From: an uncultured Cytophagales bacterium | GTDB taxonomy: Bacteria; Bacteroidota; Bacteroidia; Cytophagales; UBA9547 | Direction of reading: 5' to 3' | DNA length: 64,000 bases | Assembly (NCBI GenBank): GCA_945957555.1 | Contig: CAMFLX010000012.1 | Coordinates: 1-64,000, forward strand | The notes under the pieces: generated by a model | Seen by the model: the letters and a program-made list of their open reading frames with translations, nothing else | Told to the model about the DNA's origin: nothing | Databases searched by the model: none | Made by a program: the position numbers and the translations under genes | Shown: one piece after another, positions 2,849-35,439 of the stretch | Layout: every line of letters starts with the position of its first letter | Numbering within the stretch: the stretch's first letter is position 1

Positions 2849-3732
2849 TTTAATTTGTTTGTTTTGTTGGGTAAAGATATAAATAATTGAATATTTACTG
2901 AAGGCTTGCCGATTTTAAGAATAGTGTGCCCCTATTAAAAAAGATTTAGTACGACATTGCTAGTTAATTAGGTTAGGTTGTGTTAGATGAATTAGGAATG
3001 GACTTTGCCTCTATCCTGATTTTTTCGCGTAATTATCATCTTGTTCCGACTTAAAGAGCAGTTTGTAATTTAACAGAATAGATGATATGTATTTTTACTT
3101 GCGGAATCTTCTCATACTACTGAGTATTTGCTTCAAAATTTCTTAGATTACCATGGCTTTGACGTATTGCTTTGCATCTTTAAGGTGGGATTGAAAAATA
3201 TATTTTTTAAGACTCAGAAAAACAATTTCCTTTTCTATAAATAGTAGTAATTATTTAAAAATATATTACGTTGATATTATTTTTCTATACGATCTTTTTA
3301 GCTTAATATTTCTGTTATAGACAATTTTATTAGCAAATTCATATTTTAGTATCTGTCTTATGTGGTTTAAAAATCATATCTATTTTTGCTAGTTATTCCG
3401 ACTGATTTCGAGTAAATGAATATTTGTAATATTTTCTTTTTCTAATAACTGGTCATTTTGAGCAAATTTTAGCTAAGGAATTGTTATATGAAAATTTTGA
3501 AACTACGTATTTTCCCTGATGTTTAATTACGTACGTTTATTGGTTTGTATGCATTCGAATTTGGAAATGAAAGTATAATATATATATATTTGATGTCGAA
3601 ATTGTGCAAATAAAACCAATGTTATTATAGATTAAATCGTATTTGATATTATTTATATATATATGAAATGAGTTCGTATGAATCCTTTATTATCAATTGT
3701 CGTATTTATAACAAAAGTCTTATAAAATTCTC
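2849..3732. other. Long AT-rich gene-free region upstream of the giant adhesin
   Basis: About 880 bp without a convincing coding frame. It is very A/T-rich, with alternating AT tracts near 3576-3590 and 3649-3664. It holds one copy of a 25-bp sequence repeated at 41104-41128 (here 2965-2989). No clear Bacteroidota promoter was found close to the adhesin start, so a long 5' UTR or a regulated, non-consensus promoter is possible. Confidence 0.6.
2965..2989 (+). repeat. 25-bp dispersed repeat, copy 1
   Basis: This sequence, starting TAATTAGGTTAGG and ending TGTGTTAGATG, occurs again in exact reverse complement at 41104-41128. Both copies are in non-coding DNA. A T-run (3020-3025) follows about 30 nt downstream on this strand, but without a strong stem. 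Confidence 0.8.
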
Positions 3733-6700
3733 ATGAGAGGGTATAGTTTACTATGGAGAAGTCTGCTGTTTTTATTGATAGCAGCGATGTGTGAGGTTAA
3801 TGCTGCTACTTATTATTGGGTTGGTGGAGCATCGAATTCTTGGAATACTAGCGCTAACTGGAGTGCTACATTGGGCGGAGCAGGAGGAGCAGGTGTTCCA
3901 GGTGCTGCCGATAATGCTGTCTTTGACGGTTCCAATATTGGTGGAGGGGCCACAGGACCTGTGGCTATAGCCTTTGATAATAACTATACGGTTGGGGGAG
4001 TCTCTATCCTAAATTTCGGGGCGAATACGATCAGTTTAACCTCTACCTCTGCTGCAAATAGAACACTTACCGTTCAGCCGTCATCCGGGTCAACCACTTT
4101 TACAGTGGCATCAGGTAATACTTTACGGTTAAGTGGTCAAGCTACTTCAAATAGAACATTCAATTTAACAATTGGTACTGGTTGCGCTGCTACTATTGAT
4201 GGTACAGTGACAACCAATATGGGAGGTACGGCTATTTCTACCTTAGGTGTTTCTGGTACAGGTACAATAGCGTTTTCAGCTACTGGATTGTACATACACA
4301 ATGTAAATGGTGGTACAATACCTGCAGCTACATGGAACGCTGCAGCGGAATGTAGGGTTACGGGCACTACCGGTACGGCACCTACATTTCCAGCGACTAC
4401 AAGTTATGGGAACTTGACTTGGAATGCGCCTTCACAAACTATTGCTGCTGCTATCAATATTACTCCTTTTACGGTACAAGGTACTTGCAAGGTCACTTCT
4501 ACTGGTTCGGGTTCATTTGTGCTTAGAAGCTCTAATGCCTCAAGTGCACTTACTGTAGGTACTTTTCAAATGGATGGAGGTACTTTCAGTTTCTATACCT
4601 CAGCAAACAAACAAACTATTACGGCCAACATTACTACATTGAACCAAACAGCTGGTACCATCAATCTTAATGCAGGAGGTACTGGTACATCAGTTGTAAA
4701 TGTGAATGTTTCGGGGAACTTCACTCAAAGTGGAGGAACTTTAGAAATGGCTACATCTGCGACGACGGGTTCTGGCAATTTACTATTGGCAGGGGACTTA
4801 ACACAAACAGGAAGCCCAGTGATACAAAGAACAGGAGGAGCTGCCACCTCAAGAATAGAATTTAATGGTGCTAGTAATACACAAGTAACCACGGCAGCCA
4901 GTGGTATCGGTACCAATGTGAATATTACACTCAATAAAACTTCCAACAGCAATACACTGACACTGGCCAGTACCTTGTCTTTACCCAACAATTCTACTTT
5001 AACCCTTACCTCAGGGGTTTTGACACTAAATGGCAATACTTTGAATTTGGGAACTACCCAGAATATCTCTCGTGCTGGGGGAGCGAGTATAGATAACACT
5101 ACAGGTACCTTCAATCACGGAACTACAACTAACCTTTCTTATGTAGGTTCTGTCAACTTTCAAACAGGGGTAGAGTTGCCCACTTCTGCTTCTGTATTGG
5201 GAACATTAACTATAAACATGGGTACCTCTAACATAGTGACACTGGCAGCTAATGCAACCGTAAATGGTACCTTAACTGTGACAGCTGGAACTTTACAACT
5301 TAGTACCTTTGACCTTAACGCAGTTGGGACAACTAACTTAGCAGGTACAATAAACGATAACAGTGCAACAGGTACTAATACCTTTGCAAGTTTGACATTC
5401 ACGGGTGGTACGCTTCAATCTACTGCAACTGCACTTTACACTGTTTCAGGTGCTTTAAATGCCGCAACAGGAAATGGTACCATAGGGGCATGTGCGATTA
5501 CCGTTAATGGAACTACAACAATTTCCGCATCTAGAACTTTAACGATCAACAGTGCTACTGGTGCAAAATCTTTTGTTGATGTAACATTAAACGGTATTTG
5601 GACAAATTCAGGAAATGCTTCAATTGCGATCAGTGGTACATTAACTGTTAATACTGGCGCGACATTTACTTCAGGAACTGGCACTTATACACTTTCAGGA
5701 ACAGGCAAAAATATTGCGGGTTCTATTGCAAGTTTTACAATTTCCAGTTTGACGATTAGTGGTACATATACGCAAACAGTTACTGCACTTACAGCAAACA
5801 CTTTAAATGTGAGTGGTACCTTGACAAACAATACCGCATTGACCACTACCACACTTAATGTACTTTCTGGTGGTTATTTGAATACTGCAAATGCTTTGAC
5901 TAGTACTACCGCTACAATCAGTAATGGAGGACAACTAGATATCAATGCTGGTATTACTTTTACAGTAAATGGTTCGGTGAGCAATAGCGGTACATTTAAA
6001 GTAGTCGGTACTTCAGGCAATCCTGCAATCGTAACTAGGTCTGGGGCTAATTATACCATTTCGCAATCTGCGGGTACGTTTCATGCTCAGTATTATACAT
6101 TTTCAAACTTGGGTACCAACGGGATTACAATATCTGGAGGTGCTATAGATGGAACTAACAACTTTAGCAATGGTACTTTTACAACTAGCTCTGGCACTGC
6201 CACTGCATTTTTAACTTTATCAGGGTTAAACTTTTCTGATTTTACCGTTTCCAATGTAGTGTTTAATGCAAGTGCAACCAACAACGTAGTTCGTACTTCT
6301 GGTACAGGAGTGATTACTTTTGCGAATGCGACAGGAGTTATGTCCGGATACGGTTTTGAAAGTGATGTGCCTGCCTTTGGACAAAGTACTGGTCTTGTAA
6401 GGTGGACCTCTTCACCAGCTACATATTATTGGGTAGGTGGCGCAACGGCAAATAACTGGAACGCAGCAGGTGTTTGGGCTACTTCACTAGGAGGTTTAGG
6501 CGTTTCTGCCTTCTCACCGAGTAACTCAGATGTGTTTATTTTTGATGGAAGCAATATAGGTGGTGGCGCTACAGGTAATGTAACTGTAAACGTAAATGCA
6601 AACTACACTGTAGGTAGTGTACGCATTTTGAATTTTGGTGCGAATCAGGTCACAATGCAACCAAGTTCGTCGGGTACCGCCGCAACCTTGACACTGACGC

Positions 6701-9700
6701 TTGCTCCTAGCAGCGCAGACGTATTTACTTTGGCTTCAGGAAATACTTTAAATATAACGGGCAATACCACTACAAGAAACTTAACACTTTCCATTGGTGA
6801 TAACAGTACTGCAACTGTGGATGGTACCTTAAACATCAATACAAACTCAGGTGTTGGAGCATTTGTTGCCACTGGTACAGGTACTATAACTTTTGGAAGT
6901 TCTGGACTTTATGTACATGCTGTAAACGGAGGAACTATTCCGACCGCAACATGGAATGCAACTTCTGAATGTAGAATAACAGGTACAGTAGCCACGGCAC
7001 CTATTTTCGCCAATGCACAAACCTTCGGAAATCTTACATGGAATGCTCCTTCTCAGACAGTTGCAGCGGCGATAAATGTGGCAACACTTGCGGTAACTTC
7101 GACCTTTAAAATGGTTAATACCAATACGGGATCTGTGGTTTTAAGAAACTCAAATGCGGTTTCGGCATTGACGGTGGGTACTTTCCAAGTGGATGGGGGT
7201 ACTTTTACTGCTTACAATGCGGCAAATACTAATACCATTAGCATAACTGCAACTACCTACTCACAGTCAGCCGGTACCGTGAACTTGAATGCAAGTACTA
7301 CTGCGGGCTCGATTGTCAACTTTAACTTATCTGGAAATTTCACGCAGACGGGCGGTGTGTTTGACTTGGCTCCTACCAGCGCCACTGGACTAGGCGTATT
7401 GTATCTTTCTGGCAATCTTGTACAGTCTGGCTCGGCAATTCTTAGAAGAACAGCTGGTACTAACACAAGCAGATTAGAGCTGAATGGTTCAGCATCAACG
7501 TTTAGCACCATATCGGGTGGTTTAGGTACTGGCCTCAACCTTACGGTCAATAAATCTGCCTCAAGTACATCAGTACAGTTCTTGAGTGCTGTTTCCCTAC
7601 CTGCTTCCATGAGCCTTGTGTTAAGTAGTGGTGTTTTGGATCTAAATGGCAATACTTTGACTTATGGGACCTCAGTTGCATTGAATCGTTCTGGCGGTTC
7701 ACTGACTACCAATGGAGGAGCCTATGCTTATACAGGTTCAATAGATATTACTTACTCAGGTAACCAGGATATCACCACTGGCCCAGAAATACCAACACCT
7801 TCGAGTGCTCTTAATAACTTAACCGTATCAGTTGGGGCTGCCAATGTGGTTAGTTTGAATACTACTGCACAGGTAAACGGAAACCTTGGAGTTACCACAG
7901 GTACTTTATCATTGGGTAGCAATACTGCCAATAGGGTTTCAGCGGGAGGTACACTCACCTTAGCCGCCTCAACATCATTACTGATAGGAGGTACAGGTAC
8001 TTATCCTTCTAATTACTCCACATCAACATTGTCTGCTACCTCTACTGTAAATTACTTTGGAAGCAATCAAACTGTTAAAGGTGCTGTGACTTATGGTAAT
8101 CTTACCATTTCAGGTTCTGGTACTAAAACATTAGATGCAAACGTAACAGGCATCGCAGGTAATGTTAGTGTTTCAGCAGGTACTTTTGACTTATCTACTT
8201 TCACTTGTAACAGGAGTGCGAATACAGTGTCATTTACCTTGTCTTCTGGAACGACATTACGTATTGGTGGAACTTCTACTACTTTCCCAAGTGGTTTTAG
8301 TACCTACACACTTACAGGTTCTTCTGTAGAATACTATGGAACTACACAAACAGTAGCTGCTGTACCTTATAATGATGTCTTGATTTCTGGTTCAGCTACC
8401 AATGTGTCGGCGGCTGTTTCTATAAATGGCAATGTTGTGGTATCAGGTACAGGTAATTACAATCTTGGAACTGCAAATGTTACCCATACTATAGCAGGGA
8501 CGCTTACAGTAAGTGGAACTTTAAATTATGGATCTTCAGGAAACCAAACACTTACAGTAACCGGTAACTTGTTGGGTGCTGGTGTACTTAATATGAATTT
8601 TACAGGCACCAAAGTTTTGAATCTTGGTGGTGCAGATAACTCTGCTTTTGGTGGTACATTTACAGCAGGTTCAGGTACTGTAACTTATACAAGAGTTGGC
8701 GATCAAATTTTATTTGCAGGAGCCTACAACACTCTGAGCTTTACCAATTCTGGGAATAGAACGCTATCAGGCTTGAGTAGTGTGATTCAAAATTTCACCG
8801 TACCAACAGGTATTACTTTGAATCTAAACGGATTTAATTTCACAGCTTCAGGTACATTTACGGCTACGGGTACTACTTCTATTCCTGCTTCTTCTACCTT
8901 ATCTACTACTGGGGCCATCACAGTAGGTGGACAATTGAACGTAAGTGGTACGGGATCAACATTGACATCCGCAGGTAACATTACTATTAACTCTGGTGCT
9001 GCTTTGTCACTAGGAAGTAGTGCTACTTTGAACATGAACGGAACTACCATTACCAATAATGGTACTTTTAGTGCTGTTGGTACTGCTGGTAATGTGGCTA
9101 CGGTTACAACTTCTGGAGCGGGTTATGTCATCAACCAAACAGGTGCAGGTGCCGCAAGTGCTGTATTTGCAGCAAAATATTATGTATTCAATGCACTTGT
9201 TACTAATGGAATCACTATTTCTGCGGGTTCAATTGATGCAACCAATAATTTTAGCAATGGTACATTCCAAAATGGTACAGGAACAGCTTATCTTACACTG
9301 ACAGGATTAACGTTTGGTAATTTTACTGCATCAAATGTGGTCTTCAATGGTACAACACCTACCTACAACGTTGTAAGAACTTCAGGAACGGGAACCATTA
9401 CCTTCCAAGATTATTCTGGTGCAAGATCTGGACAGGCGTATGAAAACGATACAAATATTCCTGGTACGTTGATCAATTGGGGTATCTCAGGTAGTGTATT
9501 CTACTCTCAAGGTACTGCTGATTTCTATGTACTTTCTACTTGGAACTCAGCAAGAGATGGATCAGGGTCTGCCCCATCCAGCTTATCAAAACTAGCAGAT
9601 GCTTCAAGTGATTTCGTTGTGCAAGCAACACATACAGTAACTGTAAACAATAACTTGTCAATCAATGCATTGACAGTCGAGTCTTCTGGTTCTCTTATAG

Positions 9701-12700
9701 TTGGTGATGCCAGTGCTACACCAAGAACAGTCGCTATCAATGGTGATGTAACTATTCAGCCATCGGGCACTGTATCAGTTGCAAACTTCAATGCAGTACA
9801 CACCATAAACTTTACTGGATCTAGTTTTACCAACAATGGTTCATTTAGCTTATACAACACAAGTTTGCTCAAGTCTGCCATATTTAACTTCAACGGAGTT
9901 ACCATGACGGTGGGCGGTAGTGTTTCCCCAATATTTGCGTCGATAAATTTCAACAACCAAGCGCCACCTTATACAAATAGTACAGTTACTGCTTCAGTGC
10001 CAATGACGATAAAAGGTAATGTGGTCTTTGTTACAGGAGCTGTTTTCAATGATGGCGGTTTGACACACACTGTTGCTGGTAACTGGCAGCAAGCTACTGT
10101 TTCACAAATAAGTGGTGTGGGTACGATTCAATTCAACGGTAACAGCACACAACAAATTAGCACAGCAAGTACTTTTTACAACCTTACATTCAACGGTGGA
10201 AATGCTCCAAATATTAATGGTGCAATCACTGTCAATGGAAAACTGTATGTTACCAACAACACAAACGTGAGTACTGCTGTGGGCACACATACCTACAATG
10301 GTGATTTTACGGTTGATGCAGGAAGTTCTTATAACCAAACAGCTAATACAGCAACTTTTGCATCTAATGTTGCTACACAAAATATAGATTTCAGCAATGC
10401 TACATTTGCAACACTTACATTTACAGGTTCGGGGTTAAAAGCGACTTCTGGTAACCTCAGAGCAACGGCTGGAGTAACCATTAATACAGGTGCTACAGTG
10501 GATGGAGCAGGTTCTCATCAAATCACTGGTAATTTTACGGTAAATGGAACTTCGGCATGGACAGGTTTGGTAACCATGACTGGTGGTAACCTCACTTCCT
10601 CCAATGCAAGCATTGCCCTTGCTGGCCCACTTACAACTACTGGTAATGTCACCTTGGTCAATACTGTTGCTACCAATCCTATAACATTGACTATCGCAGA
10701 TAATTTTAATATCAATGTGGGTACATTTACCATTAGTAGCCCTGCGACAATCATCGGAAACACAGGATTTACAATGAATGTTGCAAATGGTGCTGCGATA
10801 ACAATGCTAGGTGCTAATAACTTCCCTACAGGTTTTGATTCATACAACTTTGTATTAGGTTCAACTGCAAACTATACTGCAACCACTGCACAGGCAACTA
10901 CGCAAGTGATAGCTGGAGGTGTATTTTATTCAAATTTGACCATTCAGAATAATAGTAAAACAGCTGGTGGCAATATTGATGTATTAGGCAATCTTACCTT
11001 TAACAACGCAGGAACGGTAAACACAAGTTTTGACCTATTGGGTATGACTTTGTCAGTAGAAGGAAATATCGTGATTGGTAATACTGGTAGTTCAATTACA
11101 TCTTCATTGGCTGGCAGCGTGTTGAACCTACGCGCTGTAAATGCGAACCAGACCATCGGCATTGGTACTTACAATTTAGGAACGATTGCTCTTACACAGT
11201 CTTCGCCTTCTACAGCAAGATCGAGGACATTTACAAATGGATCGAATATTACAGCGGTTAATTTCCAAGCAAGCAATCCAGCTGGGGATGCTGTTAATAG
11301 GCTTATAGTAGATTTGGGCACAAACGTTGTTACTGCTGGTTCTGGTGCTTCAGTATTCAGTTTAGGTGCTAATTCAGGAATTTATACTTCAGGTGCATCA
11401 AGTTTACAGACCACATTTGACGGATTTACCACCGTATCTATGAATGATTCATCATTTGTAAGATACAACAGTACGACACTTGCTCAAACTATTGCTAATA
11501 AAGCGGCAACTTCATACGGAACTCTAGAACTCTTAGGAAGTACGACTAAAACAGCTCTTTCTGCCTTGGATGTTAACGGCAGTATTTTATCTTCTGGCAA
11601 TACACCAGTATTTGTGGATGGAGGGTTTAATCATACAGTAGCAGGAAACTGGTCTTTAGGGGCTACTAACTATAGTATTGCTTTGGGAAGTTCAGGTACC
11701 ATTACAATGGATGGACTTGACCAGAGTATTGTAGGTAATGTGATCAATGTGGTGTTTGCAAATGGAGGCACTAAAACGGTGACAACGTCTAACCTTGTAG
11801 TTCAAAGAAATTTGACAATCAACTCGGGTGTGTTGCTTGATGCCAACATTAGAAACATATCAATTGCTGGAGATTGGGTACAACTTGGAACTGGTTCGTA
11901 TAATCAATCTACTGGTACCACCACCTTTAATGGGATCAGTGCAAGTCCTCAAAATATTACAATTGCAACACCATCTAGCAGTTATTTCGGTAATCTTACC
12001 GTCAATAGGGGAGATTTAGTAGGAAACCCAAGTACAAGTATCAAAGTACAGACTAATTCCAATGTTAGAGTTGCAGGAACCCTTAGGTTGAACAACTTTA
12101 ATGACAATCCTACCTGTAGCATACTAGTACCTTACGCAGATTTAGACATCACAGGAGACACCTTATTTGTTGGAGGTTCATTGGTAATTTACCCAACCTC
12201 AACTATGACTACACCCAATAGTACATTGGTATTGGCCAGTGAAACAGCACAAAATTTTTATATAGGTACACCAACAGTCACATTTAATAATCTTGTCTTT
12301 TCTGGTTCTGGTCTTAAGACATTTGCCAATGGAGGTTGGACAGCACCTGCTTGCGGAAGCTGGAACAATCCTGTGGTAGTAAATGGTGATTGGAAAATGG
12401 ACTTGGCAACCGTAAATGCTAGCTCGTTAACAGTTACAGTTTATGGAAGTTGGTATAATACAGGTGATTTTCAGCATAACAATACTGTGACTTTGTTAGG
12501 AATCGGTAAGACGATTTCCAATTCTACTTTCAATAATTTGACGCTTGGAGCAAGTGCTTCATATACTTTAACTGGAGATATAACTATTGCAAGTGCATTC
12601 AATATTTTAGCAGGTGGTTCATTAGATGTGAGTACCTCAAACTATAGTATTACTGTATCAGGTAATTATACAGTTGGTGGAACATTAAATACTCGTAGCA

Positions 12701-15700: not shown

Positions 15701-18700
15701 AAAACTTGTTAGCAAATGCAACACAGATCAATTTGAATAAATTCACAGTTTCTGGCACAGGTACTAAAACCCTTGGAAATGGAGCAGTTACTATCAATAT
15801 TGAAAATGATTTATTCATAGATACAGCTGTTACCTTAAATACAACTAGACCGTTGATATACAGTGGCACTTCTTGGAATAATCAAGGCTTGTTCAGTAAT
15901 ACTAACGCTACGACTTTTGACAATGCTGTAGCTGGCCAGAATGTAGTTGTAAATCCTGGTGCTTCAGCAGTTGGAAATGCTTTTGCAGCAGTGAATTTCA
16001 ATACTGCAGACACTCTCTTCTTTGTAAATAATGGTGGAGATTTTAATGGAGCTTTCAACATCAATTCTGGTGTAGTGAATATGGGTAGCGGGCTTGTCCA
16101 TAATATAGCTGGCGCAATTTCGGTTTACAGCACCACTCCAAATCCATGGTATGCCAATAACAGTAATTTGATATTTGATGGAGGTAACCAGACTATTCCT
16201 GTAGAGCTATATGCCAAAAATGTAACTTGTTCTAATGCAGGTACAAAAACCATGGCTTACAGTTGGTATGTACAAGATGTCACCGTAAACAATGGGGTAA
16301 CACTTACGAATGCATCAAGTGATACATTGTATGTATCAGGTAATTTTATCAATAACGGTACTTACAATGCAAATACTACTGTATTGGCTATGAATGCTAC
16401 AGGAGGCACGAAATTTATTACTACAGGAGCCAGCAACTTGTATGATCTTTCATTGATACCAACCGGAACGGTTACTTACAAATTGGGTTCTTCTTCCACA
16501 AGAGTTACACATGCTATAGATGTTAAAAATACAGCTAAATTAAAGCTCAATTCAAATACTCTTATCCATGGCAACACGGGTATTGCTAGTGGCAAGAGTC
16601 TCTATGTGGGGGCTACTGCAACCTTAGAAGTAGACACCAATGGAGCATTATTGTTTGATAGCCGAACCTCTGTAGCCACCGCAACAATTGATGGCCTTTT
16701 GAACATTAAAGGTTCATCTACTTCTATTGCATCCATTAGTAGATCTAACACTGGAGGGTATATTTTAATAGTGAACGGCAGTATCAATGCTAATAATTAT
16801 TTGATTGAATTTATGTCAACTGCTGGTTTGCAATTAACCGCAACTGCTACTGTACTGGGATTGTCCAACGGAACATATTCTAATTTGAACGCAACCGCTG
16901 GTTCTGCTTATATTACCTCCAACATAGTAGGTACGCCAGCTGATATTTCAAATGTCACTTTTAATTATTCTGGTGTACCTGTAGTAGGAAATCAATTTAA
17001 CTGTAAACATTTAGGTGCATCTACCATTACTTTCGTTTCACCAATTGCAGGAGCATTGTCTTGTCCAACTTATAAGTCGGGAAATGTAATAATGCCAAAC
17101 TGCTCCATTGCAACATGGATTGGGGTTACGGATAGTGATTGGAATAAAGGTACAAACTGGTCTACAGGGATAGTTCCAGATTCTTTGACAGATGTAATTA
17201 TTCCTATTCCATCAATTCCGAATCAAGGTAATTTACCAGTAATAAATATTAGTAATGCTTCTTGCAGAAATCTAAGTTTGACCAACGGTTCTTTATCATT
17301 GGCTTCAGGCGGACTGCTAAATGTTACAGGTGATGTATCTATTGGCACATCAGTAAGTGCTACTTTGGCAATGACCGACAATACCAATACCATTAGAGTA
17401 AAAGGTAACTGGACTAAAGGTACTGGTAGTTTCAATTTTGGTCCATTAGCATCTCCAGGAACTATTAACTTCTATTCAAGTGGATCTGTGAATATTAATA
17501 ATGGTACAACAAGCTTTGGTAGTGTTGTGTTTTCTGGATCAGGTGTTTACAATTTGGCCAATGGCAATACTATTAATGCCACAGGCAACTCCTTCAGTGT
17601 AAGAGGTAATTTTACGCAGACATTGGGTACTGTAGTACCTTCAATTGGGACATTGTTTGTTGAAGGTAATTTTACTAGAACTTCAGGAACATATTCACCA
17701 ATTGGAACCATAAACTTCAATGGAACTACAACCCAGAATATAACTGGTGCATCTGTAAACAATATGGTATTAAGCGGAAATAATACTCGGAACACTAGCG
17801 GAAATATTACCATTGCAGGAACTACAAGTATGACAAGTGGTAGTCTAGTCGCTCAATCTGGTAGTATCATATCATTTGGAGGAAATGTGAATTTAGCTTC
17901 TGGAACTACATTTAATGTAGGGAATTCTACCCATGTGTTCAATGGTGCATCTTGGACGGGTACGGGTGATGCCCTAGGCAATGGTTTTGTTTCTTTCAGT
18001 GGGGGAAATCAAACCTTGAATGCTTCAAACATGGTAGGAATTATCTATGCGGGTACAGGTACAAAAACACTCGCAGGTAATGTAACAATGACAGGTGATT
18101 TCTTCATTAATGCAGGAATCACTGCTTCAATGCAAACATTTACCATAGCAAATACCTCTGGCACTAGCCTGTTTGACTTGGGCGCAAATTCACTTGTGAA
18201 TGTATCAGGAGCCAATAATTTCCCTTCAGGATTTGTGGCTTATACTTTGGCATGCAATTCTACAGTGAATTACAATTCTTCTGTATTAGATCAATCAGTT
18301 GCTGCAGTTACTTACGGTAATCTCTCTGTCAATGGGGGTTACCCTTCTAATAAGAAAAATTTGGGTGGGAATATTGAAATATGTGGCAACCTTAACATTG
18401 CAGCAAACACTACGCTTGATGCAACAACTTCAAATTTCAACATATCTATTGGTGGTAATTTCAACAACAACAATACAAATGGTAGCTTTATCGCGAGACA
18501 AGGAATTGTTAGTTTTACAGGATCGGCTAATCAAAGTATTAATATAGGTACTTCAGGTACAGCAGGCACTAAAGATTTCTTTGGATTTGTTGTCAATAAA
18601 TCTGGAGGTTCTACCTCTTTTGCATCCTCTAACATTGTTAGGATTAAAGATGATTTGTTGGTTTCGGCTGGCTCAATGTCTTTAACTTCTCCAGACACTG

Positions 18701-21700
18701 TAATAGTTGGTGGTAATTTTCAAGCGACATTAGGAACATTTGTAAACAATTATAGTAGATTACTCCTTAAAGCAACAAATACTGGTACTTACCAAATTAG
18801 GACAAATGGTTCTCAGCTATATGACTTGATCATTAATTCTCCTGGTAGCACATACAATTTAGTTGATGATGCGATCATTAACAGAAATATGGATGTTAAA
18901 GCAGGAACGATAGTTGATATTGCAGGTTTTAGTCTTACCTTGGGTGACAACAACATTCGTACTACAAATATCGGTGGAACACTAAAAGTTGGTGCAGGCG
19001 GTCGTTTAGCTTTGGCAAATGGATATACATTTAATGTACAAACTACTGGTACACTTGATCTTATCGGAATCTCCGGCAATATTGCTACCGTTACTTCTGC
19101 TTCGGCAGGCTCAAGGTACAACTTTAATATCGATGGAAATATCGCTGCGAGCAATTATTTGTTCGAATACATGAGATCCAGTGGTATTAATTTAAGTTCC
19201 ACTGCGGTGATTGCCCCAAGACCAAACAACTTCAGTGATGGTACATTTGCCAATGGAACTTCTGGCGGTGTTTTCTTGAAAATTGAAAATGCGCAGTTCT
19301 CAACACCTGCAGGCGGAATAGATACCATAGTAAATGTTAACTTTAATAGCAATCCAGGCGGAGGAGCTAAAAACGTGGCAAAAACATCATCAGGCTCAGG
19401 AAGATTGGTATTTCATAACGCAAGTGGAAGCTTTGCAGGAGCCTCTTTTGAAAACGATCCGAACAACTTGATTGACTGGACAGGCAATTATACGCTTTAC
19501 TGGACAGGGTCAAATGGTATTAGTTGGTTTGATCCACTGAACTGGAATCCAAACTTGGTACCAACAGTGAATGATAATGCTATTATTGCAATAGTTACAA
19601 ATCAACCTGTAATCGATGACATTAAACCAAGTGGAGTACATGCAACTTGTAAAAACTTGACCATTAACCTTGGTGCTAACGTAACTATTAAATCAACAGA
19701 TGCTAAAAAGGATCTTGCGGTTGTGAACGACATCACAGTAAATGGTATATTAAAGTTAACAAACAGTACCGACACAATTTCCGTTGGTGGTAACTGGTTG
19801 AGAGGTACCTCAGGTTCTGTAATCTCGGGAAATGGATCTGTCGTTCTTGAAGCATCAACAGGAGTAAAGATCATAAATAATAGAACATCACAATTTGGCA
19901 ATTTGATCATCAATGGTGCTGCTAACTTCCAACTTGGTTCATCGACTATCATTAATAAGTCGTTAGTAATCAATACAGGTTCATTAGATGTTACCAACTC
20001 AAATAATTATAACTTGTCTGTAGGTGGAGATTGGATAAACAAGGGGCAGTTCTATAGTAGAGCAGGTACAGTGACTCTCAATGGTCAATGTGCAACATCC
20101 TACACTCTCAGACCCGGAAGCAATGGATCATTCAATAATTTGACGATTACACCATGTTCAAGCAGTATTTATAATTTATCAACAAATAACATTACTGTAA
20201 ATGGTACATTCACACTGAATACTGGAACATTTAATCTGAATACATTAACTTTCAACATGGGTAATGGTGCAGGTGCTGATGTGATGAATTTATATGGCAC
20301 CTTCAATATGAATGCAAACTCTTCTTTATTGATGGGAGCTAATTCATCAATAAATGTGCAAAGTGCAGGTCATTTTAAAATGATTGGAACGGACAGTATT
20401 AATACAGCCAATATTGGATTACAATCAAGTGGCAACTTTGGCTTTATTGTTAACTCTGGCGGACAGATTTCTGGTAACTTTTATTCAATACATGGAATAA
20501 ACACTTCAGGGCTCCTTATTAGATCCGGGGCTACTGTTAATAGTACAAATAATTTGTCTAACGGTTCGTTTTCCGGCGGAGCAGCATCTGGATCATATAT
20601 GACCCTTGAACATTCATTTACAGCACCAATTATTTTGGGCGTACAACAATGTGATACGATCAGGAAGGTAACATTCTCAACAGGCGTTACTAAAAATGCC
20701 ACTCGTATTACTGGCACTGGTTGTATTACTTTCAAAGATTCAAGAGGCACAGTGTCTGGATATTTGTATGAAAAGGATGAGTTGTCTCCAAGCTCTACAT
20801 TGGGTAGATTGAGGTGGTCTTATACCAATCCAACATTGAATTGGACTGGTGCGGCGCAGGATGGAGACTGGTTTAATCCTAATAACTGGAAGGATGCAAG
20901 CGGTAATTCTACATATTATCCAGATGCAAATACTGTAGTTATCATTGATAATGCGGCTATAGTTAATCCAAAAACATATCCAGTGATTAAATCAAGTAGT
21001 AATGTGGCTTGCCCATCTGGCACTTGTCCTACCACTGGTTTGGCCTTAGATGTCAGTTTGGCTAAACAAACTATATTAACAATTTCTGAGAATCGCAATT
21101 TGACCATAGCTCGTGATCTTACTATTACTGGAGGTAATTTTGTAGTAAATTCAGGATCCAACTCCACTGTGGATGTTCTCAAATCATTCACTCTTAGTAA
21201 TAGTAGTGGTATTACTGGTGGTTACAGTGCAGGAAACAGTATTTTAAATGTTTATAAAGATTTTAGTTCTAATGGATTATTTAGAGGACAAAGTTCAACT
21301 GTTAAAATGATGGCACCATCGGGTACTGTTAATATTTATAGTACTGGAGCCAATAGTTATTTCAGTAAACTCTTTTTTATGGGAGGAGCAAATTTCAGGC
21401 AATCAAGTACAAACACAGGTACTCTGAAAGTGAGAGATAGTTTATATATTAATAATGGAGCGACTCTTTCAAATACATCTTCTACCAACTATATTGTATT
21501 GGCAGGTAGCTGGACTAATAATGGGGTATTCTCCTCTGGCTCAGGCACTGTGTCATTTGACACCGTGTCTGCCTCACGCATTCAATATATAGGTGGGTCG
21601 ACAATTACCAATTTTAACATTTTGAACTTTAATGGTAGTGCTCAAAAGGTACTTACACAAGATATTAATGTAAATAGGTCTTGTACTATTGGTGGTGTTT

Positions 21701-24700
21701 CCTATGCAATCTTAAATATGAATGGAAGGAACATAAATGTAAATGGACCAACATTTATGATGTCCAATGTCTCAAGTCAAATTAGGCATAATGGATCAGG
21801 TACCGTATTTTTCAACAATTCGGGAACTCAAGATGTTTCAATGTCTGGTGTAGGTGCAAACAGAGCATTCTTTAATGTTGTTAAAACTGGTTCTGGAGTT
21901 TTAAGATTCAACTCAGATATTGATATAGATGGTGATTTCACAATTTCATCAGGTACCGTTCAAGGGTTGACGCGAACTCTGTATTTGGCAAAAAACTGGG
22001 TTAATAGTGGAACATTTACACCTGGAACTGGTACTGTGAGGTTTGATGGTACTAATCAAAATATTACAAATAATAGCGTGGAGTCGTTTTACAGACTTGT
22101 TGCTGCTGGTTCAAGATTAACCATTACCAATAATAATGTTAATGTGTCTAACAATCTCACAATTTCATCTGGAATTGTCTACAGTGGGTCTTACACTTTA
22201 GCATTGACCTCTGCTGCAGCAACATCTACTATTGCAGCTGGTGCCTATGTAGATGGATACTTCCAAAAGGCATTTAACGCAACTACTCCAAAGACAATCG
22301 AAGTCGGAGCCAATGGGGTTTACACTCCAGTTACTATTACACCAAGCACAGCTACCGCAGGATTTTTTAGAGTTAGGGCATTATATTATGATTCACCCAA
22401 CCTAAATCAAAGCTGTTTGGATACTACACTTACTGTTAATAGATATTGGGATGTAACAAAGAGTATTGGAGATTACAATATTAGCTTTACATATTCACCT
22501 GCTGTTACTAATGCTGGCGTTACAGCTTCAAGCCTAGGTTTGTACAATTATTCAGGTGGGGCATGGTCTACGATCAATACCGTGGTGGCATCACCTACAA
22601 GCACTTCACTATCAGCTACAGGCATATCCAGCGTAGGTCAATTTCAGATAGCGATGCCTAGGTTGTCAAGTGTTACTATTGCATCTTCCATTGTTGGTAC
22701 TGCATGTTCTGGAAGTCCATTTGTTTTTACAGCCACTCCAGTGCAAGCAGGCTCCTCTCCTTCGTATCAATGGAAGTTGAATGGAAGTAATGTTGGCACG
22801 AATCTTAGTACTTATTCAACTTCAGGTTTGCTTGCTGGTGATGTAGTAGGTTTGGTAATGACGGATGTTTGTAATGTAACAAGAAATAGTAATGACATTA
22901 CGATTACGATTGGAAACTCCAATACTTGGTTGGGGGCTTCTAGTACTGACTGGTTTACAAGTGCTAACTGGTCTTGTGGAATAGTGCCAAATAGTACGCA
23001 TGATGTCACAATCCCCAGTCCAGTCACTAATTATCCTGAAATTAACGCAACTGCAAGTACTAAAAATATTCAAATGAATAGCGGTAGTAAATTGAGTATT
23101 TTCTCCACAGGATTATTGAATGTTTCTGGTAATTGGACAAATAATGGTGTTTTAGATCCAAAAGATGGTTCGTCAGTTGTATTTGGTGCTTCTAGCGGTA
23201 CTCAAGTGATTAGTGGTGCCGCTAAGCAATATTTCTACAATTTGACAAAAAACGGCGCGGGTACTTTGCAGATAGGAGTTTCTTCTGACATTGAAATTAA
23301 AAGAGGCGGTGTCGTTAAGGTAAATGCGGGAGTATTTGATATGAATAACAGAACTGTTCTGCTTAAATCAAAAGTTGCTAACGCTCCAAGTTATACTGAT
23401 AGTACCGCAAGTTTAGGTGCAGTGCTAGGTACGATCATTAATGCAAGTAATTTTACACTTGAACGTTACAACTCGGCAGTTAGAGGCTACAGATACATCG
23501 GAGCACCAGTTGTGGGGCAAACATTTGCGAGATTTAAAGATAGTATTATTATTGCAGGACCTGCCTCAGGAGGTTTTGATGCACCGAATTCAAGTATAGC
23601 TACAGCAAAAGAATACCAAGAATCTAGAAGCTATATTTTAAGTAAAGGTTTTGTGTCTTTAGCAAATATCAATACAGTTGCCGCACCAGGCAAAGGATAC
23701 TATCTGTTTGTCCCAGGAAAGAGAACGACAGTTTATCCTGCAGCTGAAGCAGTGACCTTGCTGATGAAAGGAGCACCAGTTGTGGGTAATTTTAGTTTTT
23801 CATTAACATATACCACTGCTGGTTCATCTGGATGGAACCTAATCGCTAATCCATATCCGTCTGCTGTTGATTGGGATTTGTTCAAAACCACAAGCACTAA
23901 CTTGGATGGAGCGATCTACATTTGGGATCCACACATGGGTACATCAGGTGGTTATTATTCTTATGTGGGAGGTGTTGCATCTGATGCTAGAGCTAATGGT
24001 TCCATAATCTCTTCTTCTCAAGGATTTTTCGTGAAAGCATCAAGCTCGAACCCAACACTTTCAATAACTGAAAATGCCAAAGTTGGTACTTTGTTTGCGA
24101 ATTCGAATTTCAGGATGGCTGAACAAAGCTATATTACTTTCAAGATTACCAATCAAAATGGAGATATTGACTATACAACGGTTAGAGTTGATGATGGATC
24201 TGGGGGAAATCTATCTGCCTTGAAATTGGACAATACCAAAATTAATATGTATACCTTATCTTCGACTGGGGCTAAGCAATCTATTAATGTGGTTGCCGAC
24301 GGCGCTAATTTTGAATTGCCAATAAATATAGAGTCTAGTGGTTCTACTTCGTACATCTTAGAGGTAGTTAAAATAGGAGGTGGCATGAATAATGGTAATC
24401 TATTAAAGATTCGCGATCAGTCTACTGGCGTACTTATGGATGTATATGAAGGTATGAAAGTTTTGTTCACGCCTGATGGTAATTTAAGTAAATATGCCTT
24501 GGTAAAAACAGATGTTGGTAGTGTGGTAACATCACAATTAGATCCGAACATTGGTAATAACAGTTTACATGTTTATCCAAATCCAAGCCATGGCCACTTT
24601 GTAGTTTCTGCTAAAGTTGAAGGTTCTTATTCAATACACAACGAGATGGGTGTGACAGTTGCAAAGGTTAAATTGAATGCCGCAAATGGCTATAAAGCAA

Positions 24701-24786
24701 CAATAGATCATCTCGGTTCAGGAGTATATACTTTGTACGATCATAATGGTATCGCAACTTCACAAAAAATCGTTGTTGTTAAGTAA
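3733..24786 (+). CDS. Giant modular T9SS-exported beta-helix adhesin (7,017 aa)
   Basis: One uninterrupted 21-kb frame. Residues 1-24 are a signal peptide (two Arg, then SLLFLLIAAMCEVNA). The body is rich in Thr, Ser, Asn and Gly with short beta-strand repeats (SGNFTQ, NGTLTV, YGNLT) typical of right-handed beta-helix surface proteins. Eight entry modules with a W-x-G...W...NW core begin near nt 3808, 6421, 9496, 13726, 17110, 19490, 20830 and 22921. Six capping modules with a NNFSNG-like core close most blocks. Near the end come a post-helix module (22240-22659), an Ig-like stretch (22663-22918), a GWNLIANPYPSAVDWD module (about nt 23827-23880) and a T9SS sorting domain (VYPNPSHGHFVVS to KIVVVK, last 75 residues or so). 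The export route and surface location follow from the signal peptide plus sorting domain; adhesion is inferred from architecture. The binding target is unknown. Confidence 0.9.
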   Translation: MRGYSLLWRSLLFLLIAAMCEVNAATYYWVGGASNSWNTSANWSATLGGAGGAGVPGAADNAVFDGSNIGGGATGPVAIAFDNNYTVGGVSILNFGANTISLTSTSAANRTLTVQPSSGSTTFTVASGNTLRLSGQATSNRTFNLTIGTGCAATIDGTVTTNMGGTAISTLGVSGTGTIAFSATGLYIHNVNGGTIPAATWNAAAECRVTGTTGTAPTFPATTSYGNLTWNAPSQTIAAAINITPFTVQGTCKVTSTGSGSFVLRSSNASSALTVGTFQMDGGTFSFYTSANKQTITANITTLNQTAGTINLNAGGTGTSVVNVNVSGNFTQSGGTLEMATSATTGSGNLLLAGDLTQTGSPVIQRTGGAATSRIEFNGASNTQVTTAASGIGTNVNITLNKTSNSNTLTLASTLSLPNNSTLTLTSGVLTLNGNTLNLGTTQNISRAGGASIDNTTGTFNHGTTTNLSYVGSVNFQTGVELPTSASVLGTLTINMGTSNIVTLAANATVNGTLTVTAGTLQLSTFDLNAVGTTNLAGTINDNSATGTNTFASLTFTGGTLQSTATALYTVSGALNAATGNGTIGACAITVNGTTTISASRTLTINSATGAKSFVDVTLNGIWTNSGNASIAISGTLTVNTGATFTSGTGTYTLSGTGKNIAGSIASFTISSLTISGTYTQTVTALTANTLNVSGTLTNNTALTTTTLNVLSGGYLNTANALTSTTATISNGGQLDINAGITFTVNGSVSNSGTFKVVGTSGNPAIVTRSGANYTISQSAGTFHAQYYTFSNLGTNGITISGGAIDGTNNFSNGTFTTSSGTATAFLTLSGLNFSDFTVSNVVFNASATNNVVRTSGTGVITFANATGVMSGYGFESDVPAFGQSTGLVRWTSSPATYYWVGGATANNWNAAGVWATSLGGLGVSAFSPSNSDVFIFDGSNIGGGATGNVTVNVNANYTVGSVRILNFGANQVTMQPSSSGTAATLTLTLAPSSADVFTLASGNTLNITGNTTTRNLTLSIGDNSTATVDGTLNINTNSGVGAFVATGTGTITFGSSGLYVHAVNGGTIPTATWNATSECRITGTVATAPIFANAQTFGNLTWNAPSQTVAAAINVATLAVTSTFKMVNTNTGSVVLRNSNAVSALTVGTFQVDGGTFTAYNAANTNTISITATTYSQSAGTVNLNASTTAGSIVNFNLSGNFTQTGGVFDLAPTSATGLGVLYLSGNLVQSGSAILRRTAGTNTSRLELNGSASTFSTISGGLGTGLNLTVNKSASSTSVQFLSAVSLPASMSLVLSSGVLDLNGNTLTYGTSVALNRSGGSLTTNGGAYAYTGSIDITYSGNQDITTGPEIPTPSSALNNLTVSVGAANVVSLNTTAQVNGNLGVTTGTLSLGSNTANRVSAGGTLTLAASTSLLIGGTGTYPSNYSTSTLSATSTVNYFGSNQTVKGAVTYGNLTISGSGTKTLDANVTGIAGNVSVSAGTFDLSTFTCNRSANTVSFTLSSGTTLRIGGTSTTFPSGFSTYTLTGSSVEYYGTTQTVAAVPYNDVLISGSATNVSAAVSINGNVVVSGTGNYNLGTANVTHTIAGTLTVSGTLNYGSSGNQTLTVTGNLLGAGVLNMNFTGTKVLNLGGADNSAFGGTFTAGSGTVTYTRVGDQILFAGAYNTLSFTNSGNRTLSGLSSVIQNFTVPTGITLNLNGFNFTASGTFTATGTTSIPASSTLSTTGAITVGGQLNVSGTGSTLTSAGNITINSGAALSLGSSATLNMNGTTITNNGTFSAVGTAGNVATVTTSGAGYVINQTGAGAASAVFAAKYYVFNALVTNGITISAGSIDATNNFSNGTFQNGTGTAYLTLTGLTFGNFTASNVVFNGTTPTYNVVRTSGTGTITFQDYSGARSGQAYENDTNIPGTLINWGISGSVFYSQGTADFYVLSTWNSARDGSGSAPSSLSKLADASSDFVVQATHTVTVNNNLSINALTVESSGSLIVGDASATPRTVAINGDVTIQPSGTVSVANFNAVHTINFTGSSFTNNGSFSLYNTSLLKSAIFNFNGVTMTVGGSVSPIFASINFNNQAPPYTNSTVTASVPMTIKGNVVFVTGAVFNDGGLTHTVAGNWQQATVSQISGVGTIQFNGNSTQQISTASTFYNLTFNGGNAPNINGAITVNGKLYVTNNTNVSTAVGTHTYNGDFTVDAGSSYNQTANTATFASNVATQNIDFSNATFATLTFTGSGLKATSGNLRATAGVTINTGATVDGAGSHQITGNFTVNGTSAWTGLVTMTGGNLTSSNASIALAGPLTTTGNVTLVNTVATNPITLTIADNFNINVGTFTISSPATIIGNTGFTMNVANGAAITMLGANNFPTGFDSYNFVLGSTANYTATTAQATTQVIAGGVFYSNLTIQNNSKTAGGNIDVLGNLTFNNAGTVNTSFDLLGMTLSVEGNIVIGNTGSSITSSLAGSVLNLRAVNANQTIGIGTYNLGTIALTQSSPSTARSRTFTNGSNITAVNFQASNPAGDAVNRLIVDLGTNVVTAGSGASVFSLGANSGIYTSGASSLQTTFDGFTTVSMNDSSFVRYNSTTLAQTIANKAATSYGTLELLGSTTKTALSALDVNGSILSSGNTPVFVDGGFNHTVAGNWSLGATNYSIALGSSGTITMDGLDQSIVGNVINVVFANGGTKTVTTSNLVVQRNLTINSGVLLDANIRNISIAGDWVQLGTGSYNQSTGTTTFNGISASPQNITIATPSSSYFGNLTVNRGDLVGNPSTSIKVQTNSNVRVAGTLRLNNFNDNPTCSILVPYADLDITGDTLFVGGSLVIYPTSTMTTPNSTLVLASETAQNFYIGTPTVTFNNLVFSGSGLKTFANGGWTAPACGSWNNPVVVNGDWKMDLATVNASSLTVTVYGSWYNTGDFQHNNTVTLLGIGKTISNSTFNNLTLGASASYTLTGDITIASAFNILAGGSLDVSTSNYSITVSGNYTVGGTLNTRSNTVFISSAGNSMNSGKNLGNKFYNLEITNTGCGATTTLTDSINVTNNLTINAGRLTTGVYSVRVGNNFYNYDQYNQSSAASRLTFDPIATGTRAFVCSTATATCGASTFGNTVVDIGTAKLVQSGALAINANAFRIFSGTYKLNANTLDFSNSAASILSINSGATIEVDSGASLLVRNTVTNQGVFKLVGTASAPATLGSCTSCGTANYTVLQNGASAVFHAKNYQVQSSGTSTTNYLIDLQNGTLDASNNLSKGSFSSATTTGTTSAYIRFSNSFLTSDVVASGVTFNSGKPRNVENLASPSVFNISFENSSGSLAGSSFETDNPANGTSTGNIRWTFSSTVKFWDGNGSAANTSWNTAANWFPDGVPSATDTVYIDNSKLVASYVINVDVTDTAKVAKLIMQRTGANTITLNVLAKNLKAVTDISIATGCTVNGGTGSISLGGAWSNGGTFTPGTSVVNFLGKGSSYNISNGASAFNNIVLSGTSGTKYILGSLLTANNVTINVGNTLDVSSGAYNVVVSGDWLNNGLFDPRSGSNSTATFNRAGAQSITNGPFNYFVTSGSGTKTFNSNMTIYRSVTIGSGTVLDASTNSMYVGLHWNNNATGGFTQASDQFVYFNGGGQSIDNGTATTTFSNVVLLGTGTKTLFKNSVINGQFLIAPSGLTFNMQDFQLVGNGTTSEFNISSASTVLVGGTQSFLNNFVTTNLSVNSTIRYQPFSSAYDNVTQTIMTLPNGSAYGNLDLRVRTGITTTTVKDIANDIIIAGNLTINDIYTQLNVNSKTITLGGNFAFPTGGTNANLVWGSNGALIHNGSASYYWQTTWNIDADIPSFNHLILAGSQRKNMNGNMTINGNLTIQGDVIFDMNTFTVTGTAPAFMLTQNSSRIECAVASPSIAFPTGFGTYNIDPGSLTYLDADGPQDVFATPFYGNLTFATTNTSTPLRAINLIGGNLRVANDLNFSNTTFVDNGFDLNVGGNLYTNDFYLPSVSSTLTLTGDNQLVQNLLANATQINLNKFTVSGTGTKTLGNGAVTINIENDLFIDTAVTLNTTRPLIYSGTSWNNQGLFSNTNATTFDNAVAGQNVVVNPGASAVGNAFAAVNFNTADTLFFVNNGGDFNGAFNINSGVVNMGSGLVHNIAGAISVYSTTPNPWYANNSNLIFDGGNQTIPVELYAKNVTCSNAGTKTMAYSWYVQDVTVNNGVTLTNASSDTLYVSGNFINNGTYNANTTVLAMNATGGTKFITTGASNLYDLSLIPTGTVTYKLGSSSTRVTHAIDVKNTAKLKLNSNTLIHGNTGIASGKSLYVGATATLEVDTNGALLFDSRTSVATATIDGLLNIKGSSTSIASISRSNTGGYILIVNGSINANNYLIEFMSTAGLQLTATATVLGLSNGTYSNLNATAGSAYITSNIVGTPADISNVTFNYSGVPVVGNQFNCKHLGASTITFVSPIAGALSCPTYKSGNVIMPNCSIATWIGVTDSDWNKGTNWSTGIVPDSLTDVIIPIPSIPNQGNLPVINISNASCRNLSLTNGSLSLASGGLLNVTGDVSIGTSVSATLAMTDNTNTIRVKGNWTKGTGSFNFGPLASPGTINFYSSGSVNINNGTTSFGSVVFSGSGVYNLANGNTINATGNSFSVRGNFTQTLGTVVPSIGTLFVEGNFTRTSGTYSPIGTINFNGTTTQNITGASVNNMVLSGNNTRNTSGNITIAGTTSMTSGSLVAQSGSIISFGGNVNLASGTTFNVGNSTHVFNGASWTGTGDALGNGFVSFSGGNQTLNASNMVGIIYAGTGTKTLAGNVTMTGDFFINAGITASMQTFTIANTSGTSLFDLGANSLVNVSGANNFPSGFVAYTLACNSTVNYNSSVLDQSVAAVTYGNLSVNGGYPSNKKNLGGNIEICGNLNIAANTTLDATTSNFNISIGGNFNNNNTNGSFIARQGIVSFTGSANQSINIGTSGTAGTKDFFGFVVNKSGGSTSFASSNIVRIKDDLLVSAGSMSLTSPDTVIVGGNFQATLGTFVNNYSRLLLKATNTGTYQIRTNGSQLYDLIINSPGSTYNLVDDAIINRNMDVKAGTIVDIAGFSLTLGDNNIRTTNIGGTLKVGAGGRLALANGYTFNVQTTGTLDLIGISGNIATVTSASAGSRYNFNIDGNIAASNYLFEYMRSSGINLSSTAVIAPRPNNFSDGTFANGTSGGVFLKIENAQFSTPAGGIDTIVNVNFNSNPGGGAKNVAKTSSGSGRLVFHNASGSFAGASFENDPNNLIDWTGNYTLYWTGSNGISWFDPLNWNPNLVPTVNDNAIIAIVTNQPVIDDIKPSGVHATCKNLTINLGANVTIKSTDAKKDLAVVNDITVNGILKLTNSTDTISVGGNWLRGTSGSVISGNGSVVLEASTGVKIINNRTSQFGNLIINGAANFQLGSSTIINKSLVINTGSLDVTNSNNYNLSVGGDWINKGQFYSRAGTVTLNGQCATSYTLRPGSNGSFNNLTITPCSSSIYNLSTNNITVNGTFTLNTGTFNLNTLTFNMGNGAGADVMNLYGTFNMNANSSLLMGANSSINVQSAGHFKMIGTDSINTANIGLQSSGNFGFIVNSGGQISGNFYSIHGINTSGLLIRSGATVNSTNNLSNGSFSGGAASGSYMTLEHSFTAPIILGVQQCDTIRKVTFSTGVTKNATRITGTGCITFKDSRGTVSGYLYEKDELSPSSTLGRLRWSYTNPTLNWTGAAQDGDWFNPNNWKDASGNSTYYPDANTVVIIDNAAIVNPKTYPVIKSSSNVACPSGTCPTTGLALDVSLAKQTILTISENRNLTIARDLTITGGNFVVNSGSNSTVDVLKSFTLSNSSGITGGYSAGNSILNVYKDFSSNGLFRGQSSTVKMMAPSGTVNIYSTGANSYFSKLFFMGGANFRQSSTNTGTLKVRDSLYINNGATLSNTSSTNYIVLAGSWTNNGVFSSGSGTVSFDTVSASRIQYIGGSTITNFNILNFNGSAQKVLTQDINVNRSCTIGGVSYAILNMNGRNINVNGPTFMMSNVSSQIRHNGSGTVFFNNSGTQDVSMSGVGANRAFFNVVKTGSGVLRFNSDIDIDGDFTISSGTVQGLTRTLYLAKNWVNSGTFTPGTGTVRFDGTNQNITNNSVESFYRLVAAGSRLTITNNNVNVSNNLTISSGIVYSGSYTLALTSAAATSTIAAGAYVDGYFQKAFNATTPKTIEVGANGVYTPVTITPSTATAGFFRVRALYYDSPNLNQSCLDTTLTVNRYWDVTKSIGDYNISFTYSPAVTNAGVTASSLGLYNYSGGAWSTINTVVASPTSTSLSATGISSVGQFQIAMPRLSSVTIASSIVGTACSGSPFVFTATPVQAGSSPSYQWKLNGSNVGTNLSTYSTSGLLAGDVVGLVMTDVCNVTRNSNDITITIGNSNTWLGASSTDWFTSANWSCGIVPNSTHDVTIPSPVTNYPEINATASTKNIQMNSGSKLSIFSTGLLNVSGNWTNNGVLDPKDGSSVVFGASSGTQVISGAAKQYFYNLTKNGAGTLQIGVSSDIEIKRGGVVKVNAGVFDMNNRTVLLKSKVANAPSYTDSTASLGAVLGTIINASNFTLERYNSAVRGYRYIGAPVVGQTFARFKDSIIIAGPASGGFDAPNSSIATAKEYQESRSYILSKGFVSLANINTVAAPGKGYYLFVPGKRTTVYPAAEAVTLLMKGAPVVGNFSFSLTYTTAGSSGWNLIANPYPSAVDWDLFKTTSTNLDGAIYIWDPHMGTSGGYYSYVGGVASDARANGSIISSSQGFFVKASSSNPTLSITENAKVGTLFANSNFRMAEQSYITFKITNQNGDIDYTTVRVDDGSGGNLSALKLDNTKINMYTLSSTGAKQSINVVADGANFELPINIESSGSTSYILEVVKIGGGMNNGNLLKIRDQSTGVLMDVYEGMKVLFTPDGNLSKYALVKTDVGSVVTSQLDPNIGNNSLHVYPNPSHGHFVVSAKVEGSYSIHNEMGVTVAKVKLNAANGYKATIDHLGSGVYTLYDHNGIATSQKIVVVK
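3808..6404 (+). repeat. Adhesin supermodule block 1
   Basis: Entry module (TYYWVGG...NW...FDGSNIGGG), beta-helix, then a capping module from 5989 to 6404 ending FESD...GLVRW. It is colinear with block 2 over its first 1.5 kb, including shared VNGGTIP-ATWNA, YGNLTWNAPSQT and FDGSNIGGG segments. Confidence 0.85.
6421..9480 (+). repeat. Adhesin supermodule block 2 (paralogous to block 1)
   Basis: It starts TYYWVGGATANNW and keeps the order of block 1: FDGSNIGGG, NYTVG, ILNFGAN, VNGGTIPTATWNA, FGNLTWNAPSQT, SALTVGTFQVDGGTF. It then adds an extra beta-helix region before its capping module (9061-9480). This is an old internal duplication, since the copies are diverged at DNA level. Confidence 0.85.
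9496..22650 (+). repeat. Adhesin supermodule blocks 3-7 (more diverged)
   Basis: Entry modules begin at about 9496, 13726, 17110, 19490 and 20830. Capping modules lie at 13249-13710, 16693-17094 (degenerate), 19048-19479 and 20368-20817. Block 3 uses a different entry (FYSQGTADFYVLSTWN) that resembles the start of the second adhesin at 60888. Blocks shorten toward the C-terminus, and block 7 ends in a different module instead of a cap. Confidence 0.75.
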
Positions 24787-30336: not shown

Positions 30337-30365
30337 TATCTTTTACATTTCAGCCATTTCATATT

Positions 30366-30791
30366 TTATTTCGAATGTTGATTGTATAAAATCCAATATA
30401 CACCAAGTTCAGCTACCGATTTTGTAAAGGCTTCTATAGCAACAGGTTTAACAATATAACTATTCACTCCTAGTTTGTAACATTCTTTAATATCAGGCTC
30501 TTCTTTGGAAGAGGTAAGCATGACTACAGGTATGCTTTGCGTACGTTCATCAGACTTCAATACCCTTAAGACCTCTATGCCACTCATCCTTGGCATTTTT
30601 ACATCCAAGAGAATAAGTTTGGGCAGGTTTAAACCGTCTGGAGAAAAGACAAAATCAAGAGCTTCCACACCATCTTCGAGGTGAAGCAAGCTGCTGGTCA
30701 GATTATTTTTTTTCAATGCCCGAATAGTCAAATCGGCATCATCAATATTGTCTTCTACAAGTAGAATGTCAACGATTTTTTTGGGATTCAT
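30366..30791 (-). CDS. Single-domain response regulator (Rcp1/CheY-like)
   Basis: A 141-residue lone receiver domain with no output domain. Phosphoacceptor D63 lies in [13 protein letters not shown]; the acidic cluster is VEDNIDDAD and the conserved lysine is in SYIVKPV. The long beta3-alpha3 region and the insert [11 protein letters not shown] are typical of Rcp1-type regulators paired with phytochrome-like kinases. Its ATG overlaps the stop of the upstream kinase by 4 nt (ATGA), so the two are translationally coupled and likely partners. Confidence 0.92.
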
Positions 30792-31918: not shown

Positions 31919-31930
31919 TTTATTAGGGTT

Positions 31931-35386: not shown

Positions 35387-35439
35387 AATAGTGTTTTATT
35401 CGGGTTTTTTCTCAATAGTTTCCGCTCTCGCAGAAGCAG

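Follow-up and report, generated by a model that had tools for sequence, protein, structure and literature searches.

We found that one intact open reading frame (positions 3733–24786, + strand) encodes a 7,017-residue protein in the 64,000-nucleotide stretch of DNA that was analysed (the window), which comes from an uncultured Cytophagales bacterium. On balance, and with appreciable doubt, we favour reading this protein as a giant surface stalk, exported by the T9SS, anchored at its C-terminus and probably serving as an adhesin. There is strong support for a mature protein made of right-handed parallel β-helices in series, each running from an entry module into wider rungs (the cap); we infer its adhesive role and the orientation of the rod. 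It belongs to an unnamed family of 4,300–7,000-residue proteins, with one gene per genome where checked, in which four units are fixed from the Cytophagales to the Marinilabiliales and Salinivirgaceae. Giant bacterial adhesins are usually viewed as expandable repeat arrays; this family shows the reverse behaviour. Our literature search found no named giant T9SS β-helix family and no experiment on any homologue.

The protein consists of six entry–helix–cap units, followed by entry 7 with a helix and a β/Ig-like region, and then by entry 8 with a short helix, a C-terminal region and a sorting domain; all of these features are on the + strand. A putative Sec signal peptide, clear by eye (MRGYSLLWRSLLFLLIAAMCEVNAA), occupies positions 3733–3807, and entry 1 comes directly after it. 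Ser, Thr, Asn and Gly make up 48.5% of the residues and charged residues 7.6%. Unit pairs other than 1 and 2 share about 22–30% identity, and the sole report of Tandem Repeats Finder on the gene is one short 21-bp repeat in two copies, which excludes a recent DNA repeat array. The entry–helix–cap unit as a whole had been described as lacking a named domain, and this agrees with our Pfam and NCBIfam scans of the whole protein, in which no family exceeded its cut-off and all three modules were left uncovered (an NCBIfam β-strand repeat scored 19.8 bits against a cut-off of 19.85). No clear rung period emerged when hydrophobic autocorrelation was computed across the helix regions.

Leave-one-out profile HMMs, with residue-shuffled sequences as controls, served to test the eight entries and six caps that we had delimited. 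The entries start at residues 26, 897, 1921, 3332, 4459, 5254, 5701 and 6396. Seven of the eight were recovered at 14–28 bits, the best shuffled sequence reaching 5.8 bits: entry 1 (3808–4017, 27.7 bits), entry 2 (6421–6642, 18.8 bits), entry 4 (13726–13932, 14.4 bits), entry 5 (17110–17322, 27.0 bits), entry 6 (19492–19707, 23.1 bits), entry 7 (20833–21087, 15.5 bits) and entry 8 (22918–23127, 22.8 bits). Entry 3 (residues 1921–1990, positions 9493–9702) was missed by its HMM, although it lies at the expected position. It begins FYSQGTADFYVLSTWNS... and does not contain the W-G...NW motif. Its match to the G8 domain (PF10162; E = 4e-4, 20.7 bits) falls under the curated cut-off of 22.9 bits, so that it may be called a variant entry weakly like G8. 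In relatives without extra units, this type of entry sits directly after the signal peptide. The preliminary description had listed eight 'W-G...NW' entries and six closing modules in the order given above. The intact reading frame and the recovery of all six caps and seven entries uphold the counts and the order, and all eight entry positions stand, but the motif does not extend to entry 3, and entry 2 has VW in place of NW.

A profile built from 40 entries was compared with solved chains. It matched a region of RemZ (E 2e-15), amnionless 6gje (E 0.013) and Mfa5 (E 0.051), and in 6gje the NW of the entry aligned with Asn35 of AMN. This residue is buried at the apex of the right-handed, pyramid-shaped β-helix 1 of amnionless (PMC6283879). 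Pfam matched Amnionless in three of the 40 entries and G8 in three, while the window protein itself scored 17.7 bits against Amnionless (PF14828), under the curated cut-off of 30.4 bits. These weak matches, together with the position of Asn35 at a β-helix apex, suggest that each entry opens the following helix at its N-terminal end and is distantly related to amnionless and G8. The likeness to Amnionless (PF14828; 6gje) and G8 (PF10162; TMEM2) lies in the alignment of the entry with the N-terminal start of a right-handed β-helix, but the matches stay under the curated cut-offs where a cut-off is shown. The solved amnionless and G8 proteins also differ from the window protein in that they come from animals and combine short helices with other domains.

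The caps lie at residues 753–892, 1777–1916, 3172–3327, 4321–4459, 5107–5249 and 5547–5696, and leave-one-out HMMs recovered them at 28–114 bits, against 5.0 bits for the best of 100 residue-shuffled copies. Unit 1 contains a putative β-helix (4018–5988), with 40% identity to unit 2 across 926 residues, and cap 1 (5989–6408, 113.9 bits), the predicted wide C-terminal rungs of helix 1. Helix 2 (6643–9060), the end of which was modelled from residue 1690 onward, forms one β-helix with cap 2 (9061–9480, 101.9 bits) in the model. Three helices whose unit lengths were compared across relatives come next: helix 3 (9703–13245; unit of 1,410 residues) precedes cap 3 (13246–13713, 58.1 bits), helix 4 (13933–16692; unit of 1,136 residues) precedes cap 4 (16693–17109, 28.4 bits), which clusters with other U4 caps, and helix 5 (17323–19050; unit of 787 residues) precedes cap 5 (19051–19479, 66.3 bits), the U5 caps forming one group with support 100. 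Helix 6 (19708–20370; unit of 446 residues) was assigned from the AlphaFold model, in which it forms one β-helix with cap 6 (20371–20820, 66.6 bits). A seventh probable helix (21088–22317) was recognized from its sequence pattern and has no cap match. The β/Ig-like region C-terminal of unit 7 (22318–22917) and the short helix with the C-terminal extracellular region (23128–24570) were assigned by sequence inspection.

Two junction regions were then modelled by AlphaFold with the relatives' sequences (26 and 14 aligned sequences). The model of residues 5060–5830, spanning cap 5, unit 6 and entry 7, reached pLDDT 89 and pTM 0.72, and that of residues 1690–2130, spanning the end of helix 2, cap 2, entry 3 and the start of helix 3, reached pLDDT 87 and pTM 0.65; these pTM values do not fix the angle between units. 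Foldseek alone returned no structural match better than E 1.1e-3, as may be expected for a long multi-domain solenoid. We read unit boundaries from the ranges of structural alignments with solved β-helices, obtained by applying VIA-align to the Foldseek candidates. Among the 50 rows listed for the first model, 44 solved chains superposed at an rmsd of 5 Å or less, the best being AlgE4 2pyh (Z 16.7, 293 residues, 3.6 Å). All 44 begin at model residue 207 or later and so lie beyond the first junction, and 40 of them extend no further than residue 647, the end of cap 6, solved β-helices being mostly single units and thus biasing alignments toward unit size. In the second model, helix and cap align as one β-helix (6e1r, Z 15.1, 213 residues, 3.1 Å), and this alignment ends at model residue 231, the boundary of cap 2 and entry 3. 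Twenty-four of the 42 low-rmsd rows for this model end there or earlier, and the longest spans 213 residues. Whole units thus superpose on solved right-handed β-helices, which places them among the right-handed parallel β-helix proteins. The alignment ranges of both models indicate that the cap is the last, wider-rung part of the same β-helix and not a separate closing domain, and that the chain break falls in the link that joins the final Trp of one cap to the first Trp of the entry after it. The predicted division of the chain into successive β-helix units, one helix per unit, thus agrees with the preliminary description, but its notion of the cap as a distinct closing piece does not survive. 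It had also named an unbroken helix through the W-G and cap segments as the observation that would count against it; in the models the helix continues through the cap and breaks at the boundary of cap and entry.

We then investigated the relatives of this protein. Because an alignment of 18 caps proved too variable to scan the collection, a profile from a six-row subset was used instead; its scan of 84,980 species genomes gave 30 loci. The carriers are about 30 Bacteroidota genomes, mostly MAGs, with a few labelled Chlorobiota. They include Cytophagales (Cytophagaceae, Cyclobacteriaceae, Fulvivirga, Reichenbachiella versicolor and Shiella aurantiaca) and, beyond this order, Marinilabiliales, Salinivirgaceae and others. 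Three loci from MAGs labelled Chlorobiota (L042, L058 and L061) are placed among Bacteroidota branches in the cap tree, and their membership may reflect horizontal transfer or misassignment. The distribution is patchy: a U6 profile at E 1e-30 matched eight of 395 genomes sampled in the phylum, and the cap profile at E 1e-3 matched 24 of 148 genomes in the order, some weakly. All cap matches fell within a single ORF in the window genome and in the six other genomes checked. Weak cap matches were also seen in other ORFs of 2,200–3,000 residues in the same order (L018–L029), which likely represent separate β-helix protein families.

Most relatives have a protein of about 4,300–4,700 residues with four caps. 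The cap-to-cap length is 1,137 ± 19 residues for U4 (n = 24), 779 ± 12 for U5 (n = 27) and, in the measurable cases only, 1,372 ± 25 for U3 (n = 5). For U6 it is 435 ± 7 (n = 26), a spread that is partly by construction, as the U6 range anchored the labelling; U4 and U5 are free of this effect. The coefficient of variation across U3–U6 is thus 1.5–1.8% at a median identity of 36–42%. An entry follows within 40 residues of 107 of 119 caps, and the Trp-to-Trp link from cap to next entry measures 7 or 8 residues in 104 of 110 junctions, indicating that the units abut closely. In a tree of 118 caps made by a quick method, caps cluster by unit position and not by organism. The U4, the U5 and the extra N-terminal caps form one group each, and the six labels require five changes, the minimum, compared with 69.9 in shuffles. 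Caps 1 and 2 of the window protein fall among the extra N-terminal caps, close to the U3 caps, and by this placement units 1 and 2 are extra N-terminal copies. It is strongly supported that units 3–6 and the tail form an ancient core whose order and lengths are fixed, and that some lineages have extended this core with further units at the N-terminus. The modules had earlier been called separable; the fixed order and lengths across distant Bacteroidota, and the grouping of caps by position, contradict this. Two deviations were seen. In a Cytophagaceae MAG (L044), extra N-terminal caps at residues 1081 and 2031 are near-copies (branches of 0.08) from a recent duplication, whereas the core units are old. 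In another locus (L036), an extra cap at residues 4143–4275 lies after unit 6, near the C-terminal end.

A tentative extension of these data, which we hold to be rather unlikely as it stands, is that the conserved U3–U6 core (about 3,700 residues) is a length-calibrated stalk, with each unit length selected to within about 2%. Such a rod would keep a fixed spacing between the outer membrane and the distal units, or would match a partner at its side.

The C-terminal end points to the T9SS. The sorting domain (24571–24777) passes the PF18962 cut-off (30.9 versus 27 bits) only when the last 100 residues are scored alone. PF18962 was matched at E 2e-5 or better in eight of nine relatives, six of them above the cut-off. 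The window genome (6.25 Mb, 413 contigs) has at least 150 PF18962 matches and encodes SprA (PF14349, E 9e-128, in a 2,443-residue ORF). With its sorting domain and the SprA of its genome, the window protein is a predicted T9SS cargo, and we infer export and anchoring from this domain and established T9SS biology.

Another reading, which we consider improbable, is that the protein is a SprB/RemA-type adhesin of gliding motility, moved over the cell surface by the gliding machinery. The best solved-structure sequence match of the entry is indeed Flavobacterium RemZ (8gl6 chain D), and GldJ-like genes occur in Cytophagales carriers, the window genome included. However, the RemZ match covers one entry module rather than the full protein, the giant gene has no PorP/SprF-like neighbour, and its CTD belongs to the PF18962 type and gave no CHU_C match. 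GldJ matches fall far under the model's cut-off in other carriers and were absent from all four sampled carriers of one group (f32), so a role in gliding alone is unlikely. Poorer still is the case for one continuous β-helix in which the W-G and cap segments are just decorated rungs. The continuity of the cap with the preceding helix in both models speaks for it, but low-rmsd alignments to single β-helices mostly end at the boundary of cap and entry, and nearly all those truly crossing it have an rmsd of 11–28 Å. Moreover, pLDDT dips to 64–70 at the junction of cap 2 and entry 3, and the entry resembles known N-terminal β-helix starts.

We give even less credence to a β-helix polysaccharide-active enzyme, or enzyme assembly, acting on uronic polymers. 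Polysaccharide lyases, epimerases and hydrolases account for many of the top fold matches, but matches to solved β-helices reflect a common fold, and no enzyme family was matched in Pfam or NCBIfam. Charged residues are few (7.6%), and most invariant columns of the alignment hold G, W, N or F; a conserved acidic/basic cluster was not seen. Ice binding, an idea prompted by a fold match to 3p4g (Z 14.7), was dropped because the TxT motifs of the window protein (195 versus a simple expectation of 139.5) are in only 1.4-fold excess.

The window protein was also compared with known surface proteins. RemA/RemZ-type T9SS proteins of Flavobacterium share with it T9SS export and one entry module (residues 891–966). 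Chain D of 8gl6 was deposited as RemA, but the bound substrate is identified in the paper as RemZ (Fjoh_0803), a 1,436-residue protein of which only the CTD is well resolved (PMC10994853). A single-sequence search of the U8–CTD stretch of the window protein against solved structures gave no match. Autotransporter and two-partner-secretion adhesins (Ag43, pertactin, HMW1, EtpA and Fap2) are likewise long right-handed β-helix surface rods, with fold matches at Z 11–15, but they lack an entry–helix–cap series of fixed order and are exported by routes other than the T9SS. Pfam and NCBIfam scans of the window protein found no autotransporter barrel family that could serve as a C-terminal translocator barrel. 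Giant1–5 of Apilactobacillus kunkeei are, according to the abstract, surface proteins of 3,000–8,000 residues with predicted β-solenoid parts (PMC12863079). They resemble the window protein in these respects, but belong to lactic acid bacteria without T9SS, have the solenoid as an N-terminal domain and, in that abstract, are not described as having an entry–helix–cap series.

If the protein is an anchored stalk, as we favour, the signal peptide would direct it through Sec and the sorting domain through the T9SS, leaving the C-terminal end at the outer membrane. The helices would stack outward as a stiff, jointed rod, with an entry shielding the helix core at each start. The conserved core would then be proximal to the cell, and extra units, in a lineage-dependent number, would lie at the tip. 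Cells, polymers or particles might be contacted along the rod or at its distal units; our analysis found neither a binding domain nor a ligand site in the window protein. This family offers a defined system for asking by what means the T9SS exports such long solenoids and stacks them, and whether selection acts on unit length. Entry and cap profiles would also mark the starts and ends of many unannotated Bacteroidota β-helices.

No gene neighbourhood is conserved across genera; conservation was seen within one genus only. In the window, the neighbours of the giant gene encode DUF4421, PD40 and aldo/keto reductase proteins. A cluster at 29191–36279 on the − strand encodes hybrids of response regulator and histidine kinase, a CheR methyltransferase and a CHASE3-GAF kinase that carries three receiver domains. 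Two further T9SS-type cargo genes lie near the giant gene (45612–47330 and 48976–50826), with PF18962 scores near the cut-off; their products are a CBM6-bearing GH5 cellulase and a PA14/PKD protein.
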